Shown: one piece after another, positions 10,048-57,443 of the stretch
Position numbering within the stretch: the first letter of the stretch is position 1
Layout: each line of letters starts with the position of its first letter
Assembly (NCBI GenBank): GCA_025966315.1
Contig: JAOPUZ010000051.1
Location: 62,001-126,000 of the forward strand
Length of the DNA: 64,000 nt
Source of the DNA: Frankiales bacterium
GTDB lineage: Bacteria; Actinomycetota; Actinomycetes; Mycobacteriales; Jatrophihabitantaceae
Direction of reading: 5' to 3'
The notes under the pieces: generated by a model
What the model was told of the DNA's origin: nothing
Databases searched by the model: none
The model's input: only the letters and a program-made list of their open reading frames with translations
Made by a program: the position numbers and the translations under genes

Positions 10048-11241
10048 TCAGTTGCTCATGACCGCAATCGCCGTTCCATCGGTGTAAACATCGCCCGATA
10101 CCTTTGAGCCAGCCGGCAGGGTCGCCGGACCTACCTGGTATCCGCGTACGAACTTGTTGTTCGTCAGGGTTACGCCCGCGACGTTGGGCGAGTAGGCACA
10201 GACGCCGTACGAGGTCTGCTCACCGTTGCGGTTACCGGGTGTGAAGGTGTTCCCGCTGATGACGTAGTTGCTGATGGCTGCGTTGCCACTCAGCCACTGC
10301 AGGAACACGTTGCAGTTGTTGCCACTTTCAAAGCGGTTGTTGGACACTGTCACGTTGGCGCCACCGGTGGACTGGATCCCGTCCGAGTGTGCTCCGGGGA
10401 TTTCACCCATGCTCAGGTTGTGAATGTAGGAGTTCGTCAGAGTCGTGCCACCATCGATCCGCAGACCATCGCTGGTGTTGTGGATGTCGACGGAGTCCAA
10501 GACGTTGCCGGCCGTCGAACCACCGGACCAGACGCCGATCGCGGACACGAACGCGGTGCCACTGGCACCGCCGCCGATCTCGGTGTGCGAGAGCTTCGAA
10601 TGGCTACCGAGGCTGATGCACCATTGGGTTTCACCAGTGCAACGGATTCGCGTGTTGACGACGGTCAAACCAGTCGGCGAGCCCTGTACCGGACCGTTGA
10701 TGTCCAGACCACTCAAGGTCACGTTCGTACCGGTGACCGCTAGTGCGCTACCCGTCCAGGTCCAGCCGGGGCCCGATTTGGCCTGACCAGGAACGCTGGT
10801 CAGAGGCGTACCCGCGGTCACACCAGCCGTTCCGGTCGGCGCGGTTGGGGCCGGGGTGGTCTTGGTTGGCGTTGGCGCCGGGGTGGTCTTGGTTGGCGTT
10901 GGCGCCGGAGTGGTCTTGGTCGGCTGAGGGGTTGAAGTCGTCTGTGACGGCTTCGGCGCGACGGTCGTTGTGCTCACCGACGGTGTCGCAGAGGGGGAAT
11001 GTGACCACGTTCCCCAGTGACGGTGCCGGCGGGTTGATGAGGATGCCGTCGCAGTTGGGCTCGCCGACACACTTACCAGCTGCGCGGATTGGGGCGAGTC
11101 ATGGTTGGTTGTTGCGGAGGATTGCCCCGAGAAGGCAACGACTCCGACGCCGCAGGCCAAAGCCGACGTCGCCACGGCGATCATGATGGACGGCAGCCGC
11201 ATTTTCGGATGTTTCACGATCTCAAGTAGTCGATGTGCCAT
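10048..11241 (-). CDS. Secreted right-handed beta-helix protein with Pro/Thr linker (paralogue 2)
   Basis: This 397-residue protein has a signal or anchor segment at about 17-36. A Ser/Thr/Pro-rich region with three KTTPAPTPT units comes next, then a beta-helix domain closely matching the neighbouring paralogue: NTRIRCTGETQWCISLGS, VDIHNTSDGLRIDGGTTL, HSDGIQSTGGANVTVSNN, SGNNCNVFLQWLSG. The Pro/Thr linker is a likely O-mannosylation target; a Pmt enzyme is encoded at 53040-54770. AGGAGAG precedes the ATG. The two paralogues are 50 bases apart, which suggests tandem duplication. The substrate is unknown; polysaccharide binding or processing is the best guess. Confidence 0.75.
   Translation of the reverse strand: MAHRLLEIVKHPKMRLPSIMIAVATSALACGVGVVAFSGQSSATTNHDSPQSAQLVSVSASPTATASSSTRRHRHWGTWSHSPSATPSVSTTTVAPKPSQTTSTPQPTKTTPAPTPTKTTPAPTPTKTTPAPTAPTGTAGVTAGTPLTSVPGQAKSGPGWTWTGSALAVTGTNVTLSGLDINGPVQGSPTGLTVVNTRIRCTGETQWCISLGSHSKLSHTEIGGGASGTAFVSAIGVWSGGSTAGNVLDSVDIHNTSDGLRIDGGTTLTNSYIHNLSMGEIPGAHSDGIQSTGGANVTVSNNRFESGNNCNVFLQWLSGNAAISNYVISGNTFTPGNRNGEQTSYGVCAYSPNVAGVTLTNNKFVRGYQVGPATLPAGSKVSGDVYTDGTAIAVMSN
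10845..10922. repeat. In-frame 27-bp tandem repeat (KTTPAPTPT)
   Basis: About three near-identical 27-base units encode the Pro/Thr linker of the second beta-helix protein. Units differ by single bases. Length change would alter only linker length. Confidence 0.75.
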
Positions 11242-11513
11242 GTAAGAAAACTCTCCTCATGTTGCGCAGCCCGTACGGAGCTTGTGAGCACCGCGAATAA
11301 TTAACGGAATGCAAACGGAATGTTGTTCGGCGGGGATCTTCAGTTGACGAGGGGCCATCACGGGGTCCGTGAATTAACGGGTTAGCGGCAACTTGGAATC
11401 CCGCCAGAGATTAGCCGACCAACTGCCCTACCGAAGAATTGACTTCGGCCGCAGTAAAACTATTGATAAGATAACGGTTAAATAAACGTGAGGGCGTTCG
11501 AATTCACGTCTCC

Positions 11514-11535
11514 TTTGACCGAATCGTCGGTCAAA
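11514..11535. promoter_or_regulatory. Perfect palindrome TTTGACCGA-N4-TCGGTCAAA
   Basis: Nine-base arms match perfectly with a 4-base centre (ATCG). It lies 19 bases upstream of the CRP-like site, in the promoter region of the flippase operon. It is a candidate operator for an unidentified dimeric regulator. Confidence 0.5.
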
Positions 11536-11554
11536 ACGGTGGGCCTGCCGACCC

Positions 11555-11578
11555 AAACTGTGATCTAGCTCACAGTTT
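11555..11578. promoter_or_regulatory. CRP/GlxR-like operator TGTGA-N6-TCACA
   Basis: The core TGTGATCTAGCTCACA (11559-11574) matches the TGTGA-N6-TCACA consensus of CRP/GlxR cAMP-receptor regulators. The symmetry extends to 9-base arms (AAACTGTGA / TCACAGTTT). It lies about 230 bases upstream of the flippase start and 314 bases upstream of the divergent beta-helix gene, so it could control either. Confidence 0.65.
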
Positions 11579-11803
11579 GACGGGGATCACTTCATCGAAC
11601 CCGGCTTCAACCTCGGCGGGCGAGCCGGACAAGTCGCGCAATTTGCCTCTCAGATTCGCCAGATCTGCCCTAACAGCCCAGATTTTGCGGCCAAAGGTGC
11701 TCAGTTCCTCACCTGACCGTACGATAAGCAAACATGAAGCGCCCCCGCAGTCGCGGGGCGCACCGAGCCGCAGTGGGAGCCTGACCGCCATGCCCGTCGC
11801 GCG

Positions 11804-13450
11804 ATGATTAACGCACGGCGTCGGCGACAGCGCGCACAGGCCCGACACAGCGCGGATCAGGCTCCGGAGGCTGGCCTCTCGCATCGCGTACGACGGGGCG
11901 CAATGTGGAGCGCGGCCAGCACGCTAACGATGCGGTTAGCCAACATCTCGATCATGGCCGTCGTTGCTCGTACCCTTTCGCCGCGCGATTTCGGCGTTTT
12001 TGCGGTAGCTTTGACCGTTCACGCCATCGTCTCGAGCATCGCCGAACTGGGCGTGGCGTCCTGCTTGATGCGCGCGGATGTCGATCCGGACGAGGTGGCA
12101 CCAACCGTCGCGGCCGTTTCCTTGATCAGCAGCTCGATTTTGGCGGCCGGGATGTTTATCTTCGCGCGTCCACTGTCGGCGGCGCTGGGCAGCGTGGATG
12201 CGGCCGGCCCAATGCGAGTGATGTCGCTCGTCGTCCTTTTGGTCGGCATATTCGCCGTACCTGGCGCAGAGCTTGCGCGCGAGTTTCGCCAAGACAAACA
12301 ATTCGCGGCGAATCTGCTGGGCTTCGCCGTGGCAAATACCCTGTTACTGGTATTGGCGACGCACGGCGGCGGCGCGATGTCATTCGCTTGGTCGCGTGTT
12401 GCGGGTCAGTTCGTTATTGGCACCGTAATGACGTTAATGGTCGATAAACTTTATGTTCCGCGGATCAATCGTAAACAGCTGAAGTTCGTGCTGTCTTTTG
12501 GCCTGCCGTTGGCGGGCGCCAATCTGCTCAACTACGCGTTAATGAACACGGACTACGTCTTCATCGGAAATCTGCTCGGCCCGGTCCAGCTCGGCATCTA
12601 CATGTTGGCCTTCAACATTTCGAGCTGGTCGAGCTCCATGATGTCGACCATGCTCAACTCGATCGCCATGCCGGCCTTCTCACGAGTGAAGCAGGACGCG
12701 GCTCAGCTGGAGCGGGCCCTGGCCAGGGGGACAGTCGCGCTCGCCTTTGTGGCCGTACCGATCTGCACGCTCACCTCGACGCTGGCCAAACCCCTGGTCC
12801 GTACGGTCTACGGCGGTCAATGGGAAGCAGCGGCATCGGTACTGGCCATCCTCTCCACGTACGGCGCGATCTCGGTGTTCTGCCTGCTACTGGCCAATGC
12901 ACTGTCCGGCATGGGCAAAACCAACCTGCTCCTGATCACCCAGCTGCCGTGGATCGGGTGCCTAATCCCGGCCATGGCTATCGGGATCAGGATAAACGGA
13001 ATCGTCGGCGCAGCCTGGGCTCACATCCTGATCGTTTGCCTCGTGGCATTACCGGTGTACCTGGTCATGTTGAAACGCGCAGCTACGCTGCGACTGTTGT
13101 TGGTGGTGCGCGCGGTGCTCCCCTTGTTGTTCGCGGGATTGTTGGCCGGGGTCGCCGCCTATGCGGTGTCGCACTCCGTTCACGGTTCACTGCTGCAACT
13201 GCTTGCAGGCGGTTTCACCGGTTCCGCCGTCTATCTTGTCTTTGCCGCGCCCCTGGCCCAGGACGCTATAGGCAGCTCTCGACGCTTACCCGGCAGGCTA
13301 GCCGCGCCGCTGAACTCCTACAGCCGGCGATTGCGCATTCTCGGACTCGGGTTACCGGTGTCCGTGCCCGACCCATCGACCCTGCCGGTCGATGGCACCG
13401 AGATCACTCTCATGAACCATTCGCTGGTTGATCTGGAAGGGCGTCTGTGA
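11804..13450 (+). CDS. Wzx-type polysaccharide flippase (MOP superfamily)
   Basis: This 548-residue polytopic protein has 12-14 membrane segments. The entry motif of oligosaccharide flippases is present: RRGAMWSAASTLTMRLANI, then ARTLSPRDFGVFAVALT. The middle segment INYALMNTDYVFIGNLLGPVQLG-type is seen in parts (NTDYVFIGNLLG), and SSMMSTMLNSIAMPAFSRVK is typical of the family. It moves undecaprenyl-linked repeat units across the membrane. The last 50 residues are soluble. The stop overlaps the next gene as GTGA, giving a three-gene flippase-glycosyltransferase operon. No Shine-Dalgarno is obvious at ATG 11804. Confidence 0.88.
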   Translation: MINARRRRQRAQARHSADQAPEAGLSHRVRRGAMWSAASTLTMRLANISIMAVVARTLSPRDFGVFAVALTVHAIVSSIAELGVASCLMRADVDPDEVAPTVAAVSLISSSILAAGMFIFARPLSAALGSVDAAGPMRVMSLVVLLVGIFAVPGAELAREFRQDKQFAANLLGFAVANTLLLVLATHGGGAMSFAWSRVAGQFVIGTVMTLMVDKLYVPRINRKQLKFVLSFGLPLAGANLLNYALMNTDYVFIGNLLGPVQLGIYMLAFNISSWSSSMMSTMLNSIAMPAFSRVKQDAAQLERALARGTVALAFVAVPICTLTSTLAKPLVRTVYGGQWEAAASVLAILSTYGAISVFCLLLANALSGMGKTNLLLITQLPWIGCLIPAMAIGIRINGIVGAAWAHILIVCLVALPVYLVMLKRAATLRLLLVVRAVLPLLFAGLLAGVAAYAVSHSVHGSLLQLLAGGFTGSAVYLVFAAPLAQDAIGSSRRLPGRLAAPLNSYSRRLRILGLGLPVSVPDPSTLPVDGTEITLMNHSLVDLEGRL

Positions 13451-21405: not shown

Positions 21406-24400
21406 TCAAATCGCGAAGGCTGCCGTCACCGAACGCAGAGTCGGGGTGATGTTCGTTCCGGTGCCGCGCGTGAAGGTGACTTGGTACTGCAAGTAGCGCG
21501 ACGAGCGACCGACGGAACCGCCAGAAGCAGCCACTGTGGCGTACGCGCTCCAGGTGCCGTCGGGCACCAGGGTGTTGCCGGTGCGGACCTTCACCACGAT
21601 GCTCGAACCGGTTGGGGCCGTGACATCCCAGCTCAGGGCACCCCAGGCCACGCTCGCGGAGGCATCGAAGACCCGCGACGTGAAGGTGCCGGTGGTGGCG
21701 AACGGCGCCCGACGCATCCAGTCGACTGCCAGTGCCACGTTGTCGGCGGTAGAGGTGTCCGAGAACAACGGCCGGTAGGTCGTGCTGTACCACGTCGTGA
21801 ACGCGTTGGTGAAGACCTGCGTCCCGTCCACGAAGAAGGTGGCCGCGCTCGAGGTGAAGTCGACCCGGTAGACATGGCTCACGCCCACCCAGCTACCGGT
21901 CAAGACGCCGGACTTGCTGTTGAAGACGCCGTCGTTCACGGTGAAGGCCAGTTGATTCGAAGCGTTGATCGAGAAGCTCATCTTCACGTTCGAGTTCGAG
22001 CTGGTCACCAGGCCGAAGCTCTGGTTCTTGTTCATCGTGAGCTGCGCCTGGTACGACGTGCCGTTTCCGGCGGTGGCCGTGGTGGTCAGGTTGGCACCGG
22101 ATACCTTCGCGATCCCGTCGGCGTAGGTGGTCGCGCCGCCAGTGACCGTCGGCGTGCTCGACCAACCGGCGGGCAACGTGGTGCCGGTGAACTCCTGCAC
22201 CGACGTCGGCGTCAGGATGACCTCGCCGTCACCGTTGGCCGCCACGTAAGTGCTGGCGGCGGTACCGAGGTTGAAGCTGGCGCTCGTCGAATCGCTGATC
22301 GGAGCTGTGGCCGGCGCGTAACTCGCCGCCGCCGCCGAGGTTGCCGGCGAGGTGGTCGAGTTGCTCGCCGCGTCCGCACTCACGACGCGGTAGTAGTACC
22401 GCGTGTTGGCCGTGAGGCCGTTCAACGCGACAGTGTGCGCGGCGCTGAGCCCTGAGGTGGTGGCCGTCAGGTCAAGCGCGGTCGCACTGACGCCGTACAG
22501 CACCGTGCTCGTGGCCGCCTCGTCGGTGGTCCAAGTGACGGACGCTGTCGTGCCGGCACCGGTGGCCGTCACGCCGGTGACGGTCGGGGCGGTGGTGTCA
22601 GCCGGCGGGGTGGGCGTCGGGGTCGGGGTCGGGGTCGGCGTCACGGTCGGGGTGGGCGTCAGGGTCGGCGTCGGCGTCACGGTCGGCGTGGGAGTCGGCG
22701 TCACGGTGGGAGTAGGCGTCGGCGTCACCGATCCGGTGTCGGAGAACACCGGGTCGACCCAGTAGTTCGAGTTCGAACCGTTGCTCGGGACGACGCCACC
22801 CGCGCTGTAGAGGTACACGCCCGGGTGAGCGGCCATGTGCAACGGCGAGTTGTCGAGGCCGACGCTGGCGAAGGTGCCCCCGTACGTCTCGGAGTAGAAG
22901 CCGACCGGCGCGAAGTAGGACACGGTGTAGGTCGTGTTCGCGGTGACCGCGACCGGGGTGGCGAAGTTGACCGACTGCCAACCGGATGCCGATTCAGCCG
23001 TGAAGGTCGCGGTGGCCAGCAGTCCGCCGGTCGAACTCCAGAGTGAGCCGGTGTGCGTACCAGTGTTCTTGGCTCCCTTGAAGAACTGAACGCCAGAGAT
23101 GTAACCGGCGCGGTCCGCGCTGAACTGCACGCCGACCTCGACTGCATGTCCGTCGTTGACGGAATCAGTCTCAGGCAGGGCGCTGCTGTCCCACATGCTG
23201 CACGGGCAGCTGGTGGGCGTCCCGCCACCAGCGGGAATCGTGGTGAAGGACCAGGTATTCGCGACGGCCATCGCGTTGCCGATCACATCCGAGGCTCTGA
23301 CACTCGCGGTGTACATGGCGCCCTGCGTCAGCGCAGCCGTCGGCGTGAACGTCGCCGTCTGCGACGCCGCGTCGTAGGTGGCCGCACCGGCGACCGTGTT
23401 GTTCGACGCGTCCTTGAGGGTGAACACCAGGCTGGTGGCGTTGATCGGCTCAGAGAACACAGCGGTCGGAGCGACCGTCGTAGCCACGCTGATCGCGGTG
23501 TTCAACGGGCTGACCGAGGTCACGCTCGGAGCCGTGGTGTCGCCCGGAGGCGCTGCGGTCGTCGAGAAGATCGGGTCGACCCAGTAGTTCGAGTTCGACG
23601 CGCCCGTCGGGAAGCCGGACCCGTACAGGTAGTAGGACGCATGAGCCGGCACGTGCAACGGCGGGCTGTCGACGCCGACACTGGCGAAACTACCGCCGTA
23701 GGTCTCGGAGTAGTAGCCGACGTTCGAGTGGTAGGACACCAGGTACGTTGTGTTCGCCGTGACCGTCACCGGAGTGGAGAAAGTGACCGACTGCCAGCCG
23801 GTGGCTGACTCGGTGCCGAATGTTGCGGTGGCGAGCAGGGTGCCGCTGCCACTCCACAACGAACCCGTGTGTACACCGGTGTTCTGCGGACCCTTGTAGA
23901 AGCGGATGCCGAGAATGTCCCCGGCTACGTCAGCCGTGAACTTCACGCCCAACTCGACCGAGTGCGGGTCGTTGATCGTCACCGAGTCCGGCGTCGAACT
24001 GTCGTTCCAGATGCCGCAGGGGCAGACCCCGGCAGCTGGCGTGGGCTGGGCCGTGGTGAAGGACCAGGTGTAAGGCGCACTGGAGCTGGTGCCGCCCGTG
24101 TCCGTGGCCGAGATGCTCGCCGTGTACTTGACCCCACGGGTCAGTGCGGACGCCGGCGTGAAGGTTGCCGTGAGCGTCGGGGCGTCATACGAGGTCGTAC
24201 CCGCGACAGTCGCGTTTGCCGCGTCCTTCAGGGTGAACACCAAGCTGCTCGCGACGATCGCTTCCGTCATTACCGCACTCGGCGCGACCGACACCGAAAC
24301 GCTGGTGGCCGTGTTGAGCGGCGTCACCGAGGCGGCGGTCGGACCACTGATCTGACCAGCCGAGACGGTACTGAACGACCAGGTGTACGGGGCCGACATC

Positions 24401-27400
24401 GCTGCCCCGGTCGCATCGCTGGCCGATACCGTAGCGGTGTAGGTGAGTCCTGCTGAGAGCGGGGAGGTCGGGTTGAAGGTGGCCGTCAGGGTTGTCGGGT
24501 TGTACGACGTGGTGCCGACCGCCTGGCTGCCCGTGGTGTCTTGCACCGTGAAGGACATCGTCGAGGGGTTGATCGTGCCGGCGAACGTTGCGGTCGGGGA
24601 CACCGACGTCGCGATGTCCGTCGATCCGGAAGCCGGGGTCACCGAGGCAACGCTGGGACCGGACGCCCCCGCAGCCGCGGTGGTGAAGGACCAGGTGAAC
24701 GGTGCCGCCATGGCCACACCGGTGCTGTCGGATCCGTTCACCGTGGCGGTGTAACTGGTGTTGTTGGCCAGCGCTGCGCTCGGCGTGAAGGTCACGACCT
24801 TGGTCGTGGCGTTGTACGCGGTGCTTCCGGCAATGGCGTTGCCGGCGGCGTCCTTCAGGGCGAAGGTGACGGTCGTGCTGTTCATCGCCTTGGAGAACGT
24901 TGCGGTGGGAGCTGTCGAGACCAGCACGTTGTTCGCGCCGGTGGCCGGCGTGGTCGAGCTCACGGACGGACCGGTCACTGTGGCACCCGGGACGAAGTTC
25001 ACGTCGACGTAGTAGTTGTCACCCTGGTCGGAGTACGGCGTGAACTTGTCGCCGCCGTAGTTGTAGACGCCGTTCATCTTGGTGACGTCATTCGGGGTGG
25101 TGGACTCGGCGTTCAGTGGCGCGGCCTTGTAGTCCCGGTAGTAGAAGTAGTTGATGTCCTTGGAGTAGTGGCCGTTGGGGGCGTAGTAACTGGCCACGTA
25201 CGTCGTGCCGGCGGTGATGGCGACCGGCGCCGAGAAGGTCAGCGTCTGCCAGCCGGTGGCGGTCTCGTTCGTGAACGTGCCCTTGGCGAGCTGAGCACCG
25301 GACGCGGTCCATAGCGTGCCGGTGTGGGTGCCGGTGTTGGCCGCGCTCTTGTAGAAGCGGACGCCGGTGATCGAGCCGTCGACATCGGCCGTGAAGCGCA
25401 GGCCGAGCGAGAACGCGAACGAATCACCGAAGTCGGCCTTGGTTGGCACGGTCTGGCCGAATAGCGAGCACGGGCAGGACGGATTCACGGAGACGGTGGT
25501 GGCGCCGGAAGACGTGTTGGCGCTGTCGTCGGTTGCCCGGACCTTGATGCTGGTGGCCGAGTTGCCGTGAATCGCGGTCTGGTAGGTCCAGTTGCTGGTG
25601 CCGGTGGCCGGGTGCCAGCTGGTGCCGCCATCTGTGGAGACCTCGACGCCCGCAACCACGCCACCGACATCGGAGGCGGTGCCAGCCACGGTCAATATCG
25701 TGCCGTTGGCTACCGCTGCGCCGTTCGTCGGGCTGGTGATCGTGACGGTGGGAGCCGTGGTGTCAGTGGACGGGCTCGCGGCAACGAGGTCACTCGCCAG
25801 CGTCGAGGGCAGGGTATGCATGTCGGCCAGCATGTTGACCGTGGCCTGCCGGATCCGGACGTCCGATCCGCCAGAGGTGTCGCCGTCGTGGTTGACGTCC
25901 AGACCCCAACCCCACTGGATGGTGCCGGCGCTGAACACGAGCGCACCGCTGGGCGCCTTGTAGAGGGTCAAGTGATGCGTGGTGGTGCCGGGCGCAACAA
26001 CGTTGCCGAAGTCCTGGAGTTCCTGCGGGGTGGACCCGACGGTGGTCGACAGATCGACCAGGCCGGTCGGGCGGAAGCCATTGTCGACGTCCTCGTCGGA
26101 CTCGTACCCGACGGTGTGCTGAGCCAGCGCGGTGGATGCGCCGGACATACTCGGCAGCGCGGTACCCCGCCACAGGCGGGTCTTGCCCTGCGCGCTGGTG
26201 ACGGTGATGGGCAGGTCATCGCTGTTGGACATGTACATCGTGCCGGTCACGTTGTTTTCGGGCACGTTCGGCGCGGTGGACGAGGTGAAGCGCGGATCTC
26301 GCCAGGTGGAGGTGTTCTCGCCGGTGGGGTCGGTATTCGCGTTGTCCCACGTCGTCTTGTAACAGACCAGGGTTCTGTATGCGGTATTGCTGCCGTCGAT
26401 GCTCGGCTCGAACCGCGTGTGCCAATACATCTCGTTGCCTGACAGGAACATCAGGTTCACGCCAGCGTCGCGGGCACTCATCACATTGTTGCGCTGAGCC
26501 TGCGACCAGTACTCGTCGTGGCCGACAGACAGATAGGTCTTGTGGTTCTTGATCTTGGCGCCCGCTCGATCGGCGTCCACACCGGCGATGTACGTGACGT
26601 CGTAACCGCTCTGCTCGAGGAAGCGGATGGTCGGGACCTCGTTGCTGAAGAGAAAGTCACGGCCCGACGAGTCGTCGCGGGTGGCGAACGGACGGTTATA
26701 GCTGACCTTGCGCGCCCGTGACTTCGAGTCCCACATGTCCACCGTCGAACCGGTGTAAAAGTCCGAGCCGCCGTAGCGGTTGTACGCCTGCCAGGTCTCG
26801 TCGGAAGTCTGGTAGACGACATCGGCCGTGCTCGCATCATTGCGCACGATGAAGGTGATGTGGCTGGCTCCGCCAGTCGACGTCTTGGTCAACTTGGCGA
26901 TGTATACGCCCGACACCGCCGCTGCCGGCACAGTCCACGTCGCTGACACGGACCAGTTACCGCAGTCGAACAGGCCGGTCGAGGCGTCGCTCAGGCAGGC
27001 CGGCTGGGTTACCGGCGCCACGTGAGTCAGGTTGCTCTGCTTGAGGGAGGCACCGTCGCCGCCGTAGTAGCCGAGGCGGTAGATGTCCATCGTGTACTGG
27101 GCGTCGGTCTTTATCTTGAAGCTGATCGCGGCGCCGGCGTTCACGCTGATATCGGTGGCGTAGCCCTGGATCGTAGAGTCACCGGCCCCGTCGATGTCCC
27201 ACACCGACTCGGGTGTGCCGGGCTGGCGGTTCTCACACGTCACCGGGTTAATCGTGGCGCCACACGCCGAGCCCGCGCTCGCCGCCTGCGCCTTGGGTGC
27301 CGCGACGAACACCGACATGAAGGCGACGAACAATGTCGTCGCCAACAAAATGGCCAGCTGGCGTCGACCGACGGGAACCCGTGCGCGCGTCGCAGTAGTG

Positions 27401-27411
27401 CCATTAACCAT
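21406..27411 (-). CDS. Giant secreted protein: DMFase-beta-like domain, three DUF4082 modules, Ig-like repeats
   Basis: This is a 2001-residue protein. A signal peptide (cleavage near AQA, residue 43) is followed by an N,N-dimethylformamidase large-subunit-like region at about 45-540 with LSVGHDEYWS and LSGNEMYWHTRFE. DUF4082 modules lie at about 647-807, 1128-1282 and 1400-1557, each opening with a CPC motif and ending YYVDVNF or YWVDPxF. Ig-like Big_5-type repeats sit between them. Then come a Thr/Pro linker (about 1559-1600), an FN3-like domain (about 1604-1694) and C-terminal lectin/LamG-like beta domains. GGGAG precedes the ATG. The context suggests action on or binding to the exopolysaccharide. 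No dimethylformamidase alpha gene is seen, so amide hydrolysis is not assured. Confidence 0.85.
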   Translation of the reverse strand: MVNGTTATRARVPVGRRQLAILLATTLFVAFMSVFVAAPKAQAASAGSACGATINPVTCENRQPGTPESVWDIDGAGDSTIQGYATDISVNAGAAISFKIKTDAQYTMDIYRLGYYGGDGASLKQSNLTHVAPVTQPACLSDASTGLFDCGNWSVSATWTVPAAAVSGVYIAKLTKTSTGGASHITFIVRNDASTADVVYQTSDETWQAYNRYGGSDFYTGSTVDMWDSKSRARKVSYNRPFATRDDSSGRDFLFSNEVPTIRFLEQSGYDVTYIAGVDADRAGAKIKNHKTYLSVGHDEYWSQAQRNNVMSARDAGVNLMFLSGNEMYWHTRFEPSIDGSNTAYRTLVCYKTTWDNANTDPTGENTSTWRDPRFTSSTAPNVPENNVTGTMYMSNSDDLPITVTSAQGKTRLWRGTALPSMSGASTALAQHTVGYESDEDVDNGFRPTGLVDLSTTVGSTPQELQDFGNVVAPGTTTHHLTLYKAPSGALVFSAGTIQWGWGLDVNHDGDTSGGSDVRIRQATVNMLADMHTLPSTLASDLVAASPSTDTTAPTVTITSPTNGAAVANGTILTVAGTASDVGGVVAGVEVSTDGGTSWHPATGTSNWTYQTAIHGNSATSIKVRATDDSANTSSGATTVSVNPSCPCSLFGQTVPTKADFGDSFAFSLGLRFTADVDGSITGVRFYKSAANTGTHTGTLWTASGAQLAKGTFTNETATGWQTLTFSAPVAITAGTTYVASYYAPNGHYSKDINYFYYRDYKAAPLNAESTTPNDVTKMNGVYNYGGDKFTPYSDQGDNYYVDVNFVPGATVTGPSVSSTTPATGANNVLVSTAPTATFSKAMNSTTVTFALKDAAGNAIAGSTAYNATTKVVTFTPSAALANNTSYTATVNGSDSTGVAMAAPFTWSFTTAAAGASGPSVASVTPASGSTDIATSVSPTATFAGTINPSTMSFTVQDTTGSQAVGTTSYNPTTLTATFNPTSPLSAGLTYTATVSASDATGAAMSAPYTWSFSTVSAGQISGPTAASVTPLNTATSVSVSVAPSAVMTEAIVASSLVFTLKDAANATVAGTTSYDAPTLTATFTPASALTRGVKYTASISATDTGGTSSSAPYTWSFTTAQPTPAAGVCPCGIWNDSSTPDSVTINDPHSVELGVKFTADVAGDILGIRFYKGPQNTGVHTGSLWSGSGTLLATATFGTESATGWQSVTFSTPVTVTANTTYLVSYHSNVGYYSETYGGSFASVGVDSPPLHVPAHASYYLYGSGFPTGASNSNYWVDPIFSTTAAPPGDTTAPSVTSVSPLNTAISVATTVAPTAVFSEPINATSLVFTLKDASNNTVAGAATYDAASQTATFTPTAALTQGAMYTASVRASDVIGNAMAVANTWSFTTIPAGGGTPTSCPCSMWDSSALPETDSVNDGHAVEVGVQFSADRAGYISGVQFFKGAKNTGTHTGSLWSSTGGLLATATFTAESASGWQSVNFATPVAVTANTTYTVSYFAPVGFYSETYGGTFASVGLDNSPLHMAAHPGVYLYSAGGVVPSNGSNSNYWVDPVFSDTGSVTPTPTPTVTPTPTPTVTPTPTLTPTPTVTPTPTPTPTPTPPADTTAPTVTGVTATGAGTTASVTWTTDEAATSTVLYGVSATALDLTATTSGLSAAHTVALNGLTANTRYYYRVVSADAASNSTTSPATSAAAASYAPATAPISDSTSASFNLGTAASTYVAANGDGEVILTPTSVQEFTGTTLPAGWSSTPTVTGGATTYADGIAKVSGANLTTTATAGNGTSYQAQLTMNKNQSFGLVTSSNSNVKMSFSINASNQLAFTVNDGVFNSKSGVLTGSWVGVSHVYRVDFTSSAATFFVDGTQVFTNAFTTWYSTTYRPLFSDTSTADNVALAVDWMRRAPFATTGTFTSRVFDASASVAWGALSWDVTAPTGSSIVVKVRTGNTLVPDGTWSAYATVAASGGSVGRSSRYLQYQVTFTRGTGTNITPTLRSVTAAFAI
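22613..22735. repeat. Thr-Pro linker microsatellite
   Basis: Degenerate 6-bp and 12-bp units encode about 40 residues of TPTPTVTP-type sequence in the giant secreted protein. It separates the third DUF4082 module from the FN3-like domain and is a likely O-mannosylation segment. Confidence 0.7.
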
Positions 27412-29968: not shown

Positions 29969-30238
29969 GCTTCCCCCATCTATGCCGTCCGAGCCAAGGC
30001 CCAGGAAGGCCAATCCCCCGTGATGCGCGATCTCGGACTCTGGCCGTCTCCCCCATGTCGACGGTCCCGCAATCGCTGCACATCTCGTACTGCAAGAGTC
30101 GTGGCGTCCCGTTTCGATACCGCCGCCCGGGGTCTTCAACCAGTGACATGACGTTTATAGCGGGTGAAGTACTTGTTTGGGAAGCGCTAAGTCAGCGAGT
30201 TAACGACCAAATTCCATAACCGAAGCTGAACCTCTGCG

Positions 30239-30244
30239 TACGGT
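30239..30244 (+). promoter_or_regulatory. -10 hexamer TACGGT for leaderless ppc
   Basis: TACGGT ends 6 bases before ATG 30251, with no Shine-Dalgarno between. This supports the long N-terminus of Ppc. Confidence 0.55.
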
Positions 30245-30250
30245 AAGCAT

Positions 30251-33151
30251 ATGGTCGCAGAGGGTCACGATCATCCTGAGAATATGACTAAAGCGACCGA
30301 TGGTTCTCACTCTGTGCGCATACGGGAAGATGGGCTCGTGACCACCAACACAGACGCCGGTGAAACTGCTATCGAGACGGCGACAGCATTCAATCCGGCC
30401 GACGACGACACTCCGTTACGTCGTGATGTACGCAGGGTAGGCGATTTGCTCGGACAGACGTTGGTGCGGCAACACGGCCAACGCTTACTCGATCTGGTGG
30501 AGCAGGTCAGAGCATTGACCAAGCGAAGTAAGGACGATGACGATGCCGCCAATCGTGATCGGGCGCGCGACGAGGTGCGGGCGCTGCTGGCCGGCCTCGA
30601 CATCGCCACCGTGACGGCGCTGGTCCGCGCGTTTTCGGCCTACTTCCACCTGGCCAACGTGGCCGAACAGGTGCACCGCGTCCGAAGCCTGCGCGAACGC
30701 CCCGCTGATCAAGGCTGGTTGGCCACCGCCGTGGCTGAGGTCGCGGCCGCGTCCGGGCCAGACGCGCTCTCCCGCGCGGTACACGATCTCGCGGTACGGC
30801 CGGTGTTCACGGCGCACCCCACCGAGGCCAGCCGCCGTTCGGTGCTGACCAAACTGGCCACGCTGGCCGACGTGCTGTCGGTGTCCACGGACGCCGGCAC
30901 GGTGGCCCGGGAACGTCAGGATCGAGCGTTGGCTGAGACGATCGAGATGATCTGGCAGACCGACGAATTACGCCAACACCGTCCCACGCCATTGGACGAG
31001 GCGAGAAACGCCTTTTATTACCTGCAAGAACTGCTCACCAGCACCCTGCCCGGACTGACCACCGATCTGGCCGCCGAGCTGCACCGCCGCGGCGCCGAAC
31101 TGGCCACCGATGCGCGGCCGCTCACCTTCGGCAGCTGGATCGGCGGCGATCGGGACGGCAACCCGAACGTGACCGCGGCCATCACGCGAGAGGTGCTGCG
31201 CCAGCAACATCACGTGGCCGTACGCAGCTGTCTAACGCTGGTGGACGAACTGATTGCCGCGCTCTCCTCGTCGACCTCGGTGGTCGGGGTATCCCAGCCA
31301 TTGCTGGATTCGGTAGCCGAAGACCTGGAGCAGCTGCCGGAGCTGGATGCCCGGCTGCGAACGATCAACGCCACCGAGCCGTACCGGCTGAAGCTTTCCT
31401 GCGTCAGGCAGAAGCTGCTCAACACCCGCGACCGCGTTGATGCCGCAACGCCGCACCAGCACGGGCGTGACTACCTTGGCCGTGACGATCTGCTCGCCGA
31501 ATTCGACCTGCTCGCCGAATCACTTCGCGCCAACGCCGGACGGCTGATCGCGGACGGCCTGGTGGCTCGTACGCAACGCACCGTTTCGGTCTTTGGCCTG
31601 CACCTGGCCACCCTGGACATCCGCGAGCACGCCGAGGCACACCACTATGCGGTGGGCCAATTGGTGGACCGCTTGTCCGAGGAGTCCTGGCTGTACGCCG
31701 ACCTTCCGCGTGACTACCGCCAGCGACTGCTGTCCAAAGAGATCGCGTCCCGGCGTCCGCTGGCCCCCAACCCGCCACCGTTGGACTCCGAAGGCGCCAA
31801 GACCTTCGCGGTGTTCACCGAGATCCGCCGAGCCCTGGAGACGTTCGGTCCGGACGCGGTCGAGAGTTACATCATCTCGATGACGATGGGGGCCGACGAC
31901 GTGCTGGCCGCCGTGGTGCTGGCCCGCGAAGCCGGCTTGGTCGACGTCCACGGCACCAGCGGCACCCCGATGGCCAAGATCGGCTTCGTGCCGCTCCTGG
32001 AGACGGTCGATGAGCTGCGCAAGAGCGGCGACGTGCTGGACGAGATGCTGTCCGATCCGACCTATCGGCTCATCGTGCGACTCCGCGGTGACGTCCAAGA
32101 GGTCATGCTCGGGTATTCCGACTCGAACAAGGATGCCGGCATCACCACGTCCCAGTGGGAAATTCACCTCACCCAGCGCAAGCTGCGTGACGTTGCCGCC
32201 CGGCACGGCGTGCGGCTGCGGCTGTTCCACGGCCGGGGCGGCACCGTGGGCCGCGGCGGCGGTCCCACCTACGACTCGATTCTGGCCCAGCCCTGGGGCG
32301 TGCTGGCCGGTGAAATCAAATTCACCGAACAGGGCGAGGTGATCAGTGACAAGTACGCCCTGCCTGATCTGGCCCGCGAGAATCTGGAGCTGACCGTCGC
32401 GGCCGTCCTGACCGCATCGAGTTTGCACCTGGCGCCCCGGCAGGGCCCGGACCAGCTGGCCGGCTGGGATCGCACGATGTCCATGATCAGCAACGCGGCC
32501 TTCGGGGCGTACCGCAATTTTGTCGACGACCCGGGGCTGCCTGAATACTTCCTGGCCTCCACACCGGTCGAGCAACTCGGCTCGCTGAATATCGGATCCC
32601 GCCCGTCGCGGCGACCTGATTCGGGCAGCGGCATCTCTGGACTACGCGCTATTCCTTGGGTGTTCGGCTGGACGCAGTCGCGCCAGATCGTGCCGGGCTG
32701 GTTCGGCGTCGGGTCCGGCCTCAAAGCCGCCCGCGATGCCGGTCAGGAGCAAACGCTGGCCGACATGCACGCCGAGTGGCATTTCTTCCGGACCTTCATC
32801 TCCAACGTCGAGATGACGCTGGCCAAGACCGATCTCGACGTCGCCGCGTACTACGTGTCCAGCCTCGTGCCGGAGCACCTGCGCCGGCTGTTCGACGTGG
32901 TCCGGGCCGAGCACGAATTGACCTGCGCCGAGATCTCCAGAATCACCGGCACCGCTCAGCTGCTCGACAATCAGCCTTCGCTGCAAAGGACTTTGAGTGT
33001 CCGGGACGCTTACCTCGACCCGATTTCCTACGCTCAGGTGGACCTGCTATCGCGCGTTCGCTCGAATCCTGACGAGACGCCGGACGAGTTGCGCCGGGCA
33101 TTGTTGTTGACCATGAACGGAGTCGCGGCCGGCCTGCGAAACACCGGCTGA
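30251..33151 (+). CDS. ppc: Phosphoenolpyruvate carboxylase
   Basis: This 966-residue enzyme makes oxaloacetate from PEP and bicarbonate, replenishing the TCA cycle. All family motifs are present: [12 protein letters not shown] with the catalytic His, [55 protein letters not shown], and the conserved C-terminal NTG. The N-terminus is about 50 residues longer than usual and acidic; a GTG at 30338 would give 937 residues. The -10 hexamer 6 bases before ATG 30251 argues for the longer form. It is divergent from the sugar transferase, and nothing nearby shares its pathway. Confidence 0.96.
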
Positions 33152-41647: not shown

Positions 41648-41695
41648 GAAAGTCCTACTGTCACGGCCCTATGGCGCCGTGACAGTAGGACTTTC
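41648..41695. terminator. Perfect 20-bp hairpin, copy A of a dispersed palindrome
   Basis: The arms GAAAGTCCTACTGTCACGGC and its exact reverse complement flank the 8-base loop CCTATGGC, between convergent kynU and desaturase genes. The same element recurs at 46680-46727. No T tract follows. It may be a bidirectional terminator or a mobile REP-like palindrome. Confidence 0.7.
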
Positions 41696-46679: not shown

Positions 46680-46727
46680 GAAAGTCCTACCGTCACGCGG
46701 TCATAGCACCGTGACGGTAGGACTTTC
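46680..46727. terminator. 18-bp hairpin, copy B of the dispersed palindrome
   Basis: The arms GAAAGTCCTACCGTCACG and the exact complement flank a 12-base loop. Compared with copy A there is one change per arm (T:A to C:G) that keeps pairing. It lies 20 bases after the stop of the Rpf-like gene and upstream of rsmA on the minus strand. Confidence 0.7.
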
Positions 46728-56963: not shown

Positions 56964-57443
56964 ATGCCTGTGGTAATCCGTCCCGCCAGTAACCCCGTTT
57001 CGGCCGGTGCCCCGACCGCGGCCGAAATCCGAGCCGCTGCGGGTCGGTTGCGCGACCTGATGGGCCGATTGCGGCGACGGATGAACTCACAGCTGCCCGA
57101 CGGCGCACCGAGCTTGTCCGAGATCGCCGTGCTCGGCTACCTGCACCGGCTCGGGCCGGCCTCGCAGGTCCAGCTCGCGGCACTGCACAACGTCCGCCCG
57201 CAATCGATGGGTGCCACCGTCAACGAGATGGCCGAGGCCGGGCTCGTCACCCGCGAGGTCGACGCCGCCGATCGCCGAAAGTCCGTGATCAGCCTGTCGC
57301 CCGAAGGCCAACGGCAGATCAACCGACTGCTGCGTTCGCGCCAGGATTGGTTGGCCCAAGCGATGGCTTCTCAGCTCGATGGCGTCGACCAGCGAACCCT
57401 GGTCGACGCCATCGAGCTCTTGGAACGACTACTGGACAGCTGA
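56964..57443 (+). CDS. MarR family transcriptional regulator
   Basis: This 159-residue winged-helix repressor has the recognition region LAALHNVRPQSMGATVNEMAEAGLVTREV and the wing DAADRRKSVISLSPEG. Flanking helices form the dimer, and the N-terminal 18 residues are extended. It is divergent from the MFS exporter, the classic repressor/efflux pair, with palindromes in the shared gap. A TAACCT hexamer 6 bases upstream of ATG 56964 and the absence of a ribosome-binding site suggest a leaderless, autoregulated gene. The inducer is presumably the exported compound. Confidence 0.92.
   Translation: MPVVIRPASNPVSAGAPTAAEIRAAAGRLRDLMGRLRRRMNSQLPDGAPSLSEIAVLGYLHRLGPASQVQLAALHNVRPQSMGATVNEMAEAGLVTREVDAADRRKSVISLSPEGQRQINRLLRSRQDWLAQAMASQLDGVDQRTLVDAIELLERLLDS

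Follow-up and report, generated by a model that had tools for sequence, protein, structure and literature searches.

The closest described counterparts of the element reported here are the GlxR operators of C. glutamicum, the CRP (Rv3676) sites of M. tuberculosis and the Rex operators (ROP) of Streptomyces. The consensus binding sequence of GlxR is TGTGANNTANNTCACA in the available part of its source (PMC4254451), and it is matched fully, central TA included, by a predicted site in the 64,000-nucleotide stretch of actinobacterial DNA analysed here (the window). This site shares with the C. glutamicum operators the core, the 6-base spacer and the central TA, and the two regulators are orthologous; unlike those operators, it has longer symmetric arms, a polysaccharide cluster as its target and the standing of a prediction. 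The M. tuberculosis sites are palindromes of the same type and are known to occur between divergent genes (PMC4117774, as far as its text was available), although their target genes differ from those in the window and the gap in the window is known from predicted starts. The Streptomyces Rex operators have TGTGA...TCACA arms at the same spacing, but read TGTGAA...TTCACA where the window site reads TGTGAT...CTCACA. In the portion of the literature that was covered, CRP/GlxR sites were not reported from a gap of the kind described below.

The element is a predicted CRP/GlxR-type operator with the sequence CAAACTGTGA-TCTAGC-TCACAGTTTG, located at window positions 11554-11579 and given no strand. 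Its core, TGTGATCTAGCTCACA (11559-11574), is an exact TGTGA-N6-TCACA. A preliminary description of this DNA had reported the palindrome at 11555-11578 with arms of 9 bp; the motif was confirmed as exact and the coordinates were correct to within one base per side, while the arms proved to extend one base farther out at either end and to be 10 bp long (11554-11563, CAAACTGTGA, and 11570-11579, TCACAGTTTG). With the spacer counted, 12 of 13 pairs are complementary across the dyad, and this is the most symmetric 26-mer in the 64 kb; the window contains no second 26-mer with 12 pairs, and 60 Markov-random windows contained a mean of 0.1. The bare TGTGA-N6-TCACA motif is less rare: Markov windows averaged 0.07 exact matches each, and when up to one mismatch was allowed the motif was found once in the window against 1.30 expected. 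None of 5000 dinucleotide shuffles of the 562-bp gap that holds the site produced the exact core. The palindrome is real as a DNA feature.

That gap (11242..11803, no strand) was delimited from the ORF table, in which start codons are predicted only, and is a divergent intergenic control region, so that the palindrome lies between divergent ORFs and upstream of both. On the plus strand is a gene for a Wzx/MOP-type flippase (11804..13450; PF13440, E 2.8e-62, and PF01943), whose NCBIfam match to the MOP flippase family was below the cut-off and whose start is uncertain, being either the ATG at 11804 or the GTG at 11905. On the minus strand is a beta-helix protein gene (10048..11241), identified from PF13229 (E 8.8e-9) and its translation; a hydrophobic N-terminus and a Thr/Pro-rich linker, judged by eye, suggest that the product is probably secreted. 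The flippase gene is followed to the right by glycosyltransferases and, farther on, by sugar-nucleotide genes, a bacterial sugar transferase and PEP carboxylase, while the left-hand side encodes two beta-helix proteins on the minus strand, with Wzy- and Wzz-like genes beyond. Directly ahead of the flippase there is also a short ORF (11734-11784, ATG to TGA, 16 codons by eye), preceded by a TACGAT hexamer at 11720, which is a possible leader peptide. Elsewhere in the window an ORF of 2001 aa (21406-27411) contains repeats matching the N-terminal portions of beta-helix proteins from the relatives, and a comparison with NCBIfam gave no clear family for it.

The cNMP-binding domain has three matches in the genome (4.56 Mb in 77 contigs, about 96% complete). 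One of these is the genome's single CRP/GlxR orthologue, a protein of 224 aa encoded outside the window (L003:1159-1833, minus strand) that is identical to M. tuberculosis CRP at 157 of 224 residues and throughout a 15-residue stretch across the DNA-reading (recognition) helix; by score, GlxR is almost as close. Longer ORFs contain the other two matches, and by eye these ORFs resemble a thioredoxin-reductase-like protein and a sensor kinase. The preliminary description had held that its assignment would fail in a genome without a CRP/FNR regulator of such specificity, and a CRP orthologue with a matching DNA-reading helix is present. The assignment of the palindrome to the CRP/GlxR type is supported both by this orthologue, with its identical recognition segment, and by CRP-type sites in two related clusters, described below. 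We put at roughly three in four the probability that the palindrome would function as a high-affinity operator for this one regulator, acting on the flanking transcription. It is most likely a genuine CRP/GlxR operator, an element of an ordinary type at a target that has so far been unstudied. A CRP dimer with cAMP would bind the TGTGA-N6-TCACA in the gap that separates the flippase operon from the divergent beta-helix gene, and the bound CRP-cAMP would alter transcription of the operon, of the beta-helix gene or of both. We infer the binding by CRP, its dependence on cAMP, the promoter affected, the activation or repression that follows and the link to carbon status.

Among 397 genomes of the order, the best relatives of the flippase were found in G017 (52%) and G018 (48%), two members of one other genus in the family that may amount to a single event. 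Both clusters share synteny with that of the window (Wzz, Wzy, beta-helix, glycosyltransferase, epimerase, sugar transferase and PEP carboxylase), and a site is kept in both genomes of that one genus. In G017 the flippase and a beta-helix gene are divergent, as they are in the window, and the gap contains CGTGATTCGTATCACA, which has one mismatch and is separated by 86 bp from the longest flippase ORF; when that gap was shuffled 5000 times, 76 of the shuffles gave a site of at most one mismatch. The flippase of G018 has another place in its cluster, and the gene opposite the beta-helix gene looks transporter-like by eye; the site in this gap, TGTGATTTGACTCACA, is exact, lies 124 bp from the transporter ORF and does not adjoin the flippase. 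The beta-helix gene thus adjoins the gap in all three clusters, and in two of them the gene across the gap is the flippase. The gaps of G017 and G018 align with each other with the two sites in register, core arms kept and spacer changed, and the outer arms of the window's palindrome, CAAAC/GTTTG, are changed in both. Alignment of the window's whole gap with those of G017 and G018 gave nothing convincing.

The search was extended beyond the gap. The window and eight relative stretches together contained 5 places with the N6 spacing and up to one mismatch, compared with 8 over seven wrong spacings combined. Two of the N6 places lie outside the gap and are the same CRP-type sequence with one mismatch, TGTGATGCAGATCACT, upstream of PEP carboxylase in both G018 (L113:15491-15506) and G017 (L117:2906-2921); the PEP carboxylase region of the window (30050-30300) contains no N6 place with up to three mismatches. 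In 28 of 29 flippase relatives, the 1.5 kb upstream of the flippase lacks any N6 place at one mismatch or fewer. Two more distant clusters (G171 and G118) are without the site, and neither of the window's beta-helix queries matched there. A Streptosporangiaceae MAG stretch (L111), which was found with a two-sequence alignment where the single sequence gave no relative, was free of N6 sites at one mismatch or fewer over 13.5 kb. Within the genus itself, matches were found in four of nine genomes, the window's own included, and none beyond the query gene exceeded 30% identity, so no footprint within the genus was possible.

The genome-wide motif scan that the preliminary description had called for found two exact copies of TGTGA-N6-TCACA. 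The near-matches are without excess, with 23 places of up to one mismatch at N6 against 29 at the wrong spacing N9. By a codon-position test, 15 of the 23 N6 places were intergenic compared with 5 of the 15 N9 places that made up the N9 set (15 of the 29; Fisher p 0.096). Taken alone, these counts from the organism's own genome are weak support for a CRP operator. The missing excess of near-matches would also be in keeping with an operator of another regulator or a chance palindrome, as would arms of 10 bp, which exceed what CRP needs, and the change of the outer CAAAC/GTTTG in the relatives; we nevertheless give this explanation very little credence in view of the rarity of the palindrome and the matching sites in relatives.

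The second exact copy, TGTGAACGCGTTCACA (L001:1501-1516), lies upstream of a rex-like gene. The gene downstream of it has two Pfam domains of Rex, a pair that we take to define Rex. The copy matches the published Rex operator (PMC5355995, in the part available) and is a predicted Rex operator that a CRP motif scan would miscount. Rex, the redox-sensing repressor, could in principle claim the window site too, and export would then be tied to NADH/NAD+. Rex sites share TGTGA...TCACA, the genome has a rex-like gene with the sole other exact motif match upstream of it, and S. avermitilis Rex motifs with three mismatches are given as putative targets in the accessible portion of PMC5355995. We find a Rex operator at this position highly improbable, however, as none of the window, G017 and G018 sites has the A and T that Rex sites carry just inside the arms. 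The window site has T and C there, and against the Rex sequence TTGTGAANNNNTTCACAA (PMC5355995, same portion) it has 4 mismatches in the 18-mer, with 4 for G018 and 5 for G017, counted by eye and at fixed positions.

At the level of the order, sites were classified in 29 of 150 genomes. These 29 have 76 N6 matches, and 75 of them were divided by the presence of A and T inside the arms into 21 of Rex type and 54 not. Based on 52 matches at four wrong spacings, 13 per spacing were expected in the same 29 genomes. The non-Rex N6 form is over-represented in the order, though relatives share sites by descent, which keeps the Poisson value from being a true probability. Within the family, 20 genomes gave 28 exact N6 matches, compared with 38 at four wrong spacings combined (conditional binomial 2.8e-5, Rex operators included in the count). 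We considered this enrichment and discounted it as support for CRP because of those Rex operators and because the family's sites were mostly not classified. Scans for TGTGA-N6-TCACA in actinobacteria should split CRP from Rex sites before counting.

The gap yielded neither a sigma-70-like promoter nor a promoter at the classical CRP spacing. TANNNT hexamers placed the site tentatively at +87.5 and -165.5 on the plus strand and at -105.5, -116.5, -165.5, +142.5 and +147.5 on the minus strand, and none of these makes a convincing CRP promoter. With all starts uncertain, the distance from the site to the right-hand gene is 229 bp in the window (core to the flippase ATG), 86 bp in G017 and 124 bp in G018, and that to the beta-helix gene is 317 bp (core to the predicted start), 513 bp and 465 bp, respectively. 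In each of the three clusters the right-hand gene is thus the nearer one to the site, which mildly favours the right-hand (flippase) operon as the likelier target. Only a subset of the 191 M. tuberculosis CRP sites acts as classical regulatory sites, according to the available text of PMC4117774, and this, like the lack of a promoter at classical spacing in the window's gap, would suit a CRP-bound site that is one of many silent or architectural ones, with neither neighbour regulated. Such a site and a CRP operator would be the same as regards binding and different as regards effect. We consider a silent site unlikely, given that the recurrence of a site in the matching gap of three clusters, from two genera, suggests selection for function.

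Were the CRP operator to work, it would add a surface-polymer target to the CRP/GlxR regulon and offer a way into the regulation of an actinobacterial polysaccharide cluster that is so far unstudied. The suggestion in the preliminary description that exopolysaccharide export responds to carbon status may be right, but the gap is shared with the gene for the probably secreted beta-helix protein, and no promoter was found that would assign the site to one gene or give the sign of its effect; cAMP is not always a reporter of carbon status in actinobacteria. It is tempting to speculate, and we do so tentatively, that in this family one divergent switch point might place a Wzx/Wzy-type cluster with secreted beta-helix surface proteins under conserved control by CRP/cAMP, and that in the sister genus the same regulator might also mark the PEP carboxylase gene next to the cluster. 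One signal would then govern polymer export, surface decoration and anaplerotic carbon flow.

A second perfect palindrome, TTTGACCGA-ATCG-TCGGTCAAA (11514..11535, no strand), lies 18 bp from the CRP-type site and may be part of the same control region. It is a single copy in the genome within three mismatches, and is possibly the operator of another regulator. The two perfect stems stand side by side, and the segment 11500-11600 folds better than its shuffles (z -4.03), as might be seen if both palindromes formed RNA stem-loops in a leader transcript and the CRP-type site were not a DNA operator. This seems to us quite improbable: a terminator-like T run is absent, the palindrome at 11514-11535 has no counterpart in the scanned G017 upstream stretch, and the core, but not the outer stem, is kept in G017 and G018. 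Retention of the core with changed flanks in the relatives argues for a putative DNA operator and not an RNA hairpin. Other palindromes were seen elsewhere in the window. Two similar long ones, GAAAGTCCTAC...GTAGGACTTTC, with arms of 20 and 18 bp, are located about 5 kb apart at 41648-41695 and 46680-46727, and a further one, AGCTCGATGGCGTCGACCAG...CTGGTCGACGCCATCGAGCT (57373-57418), has perfect 20-bp arms around a 6-base loop.
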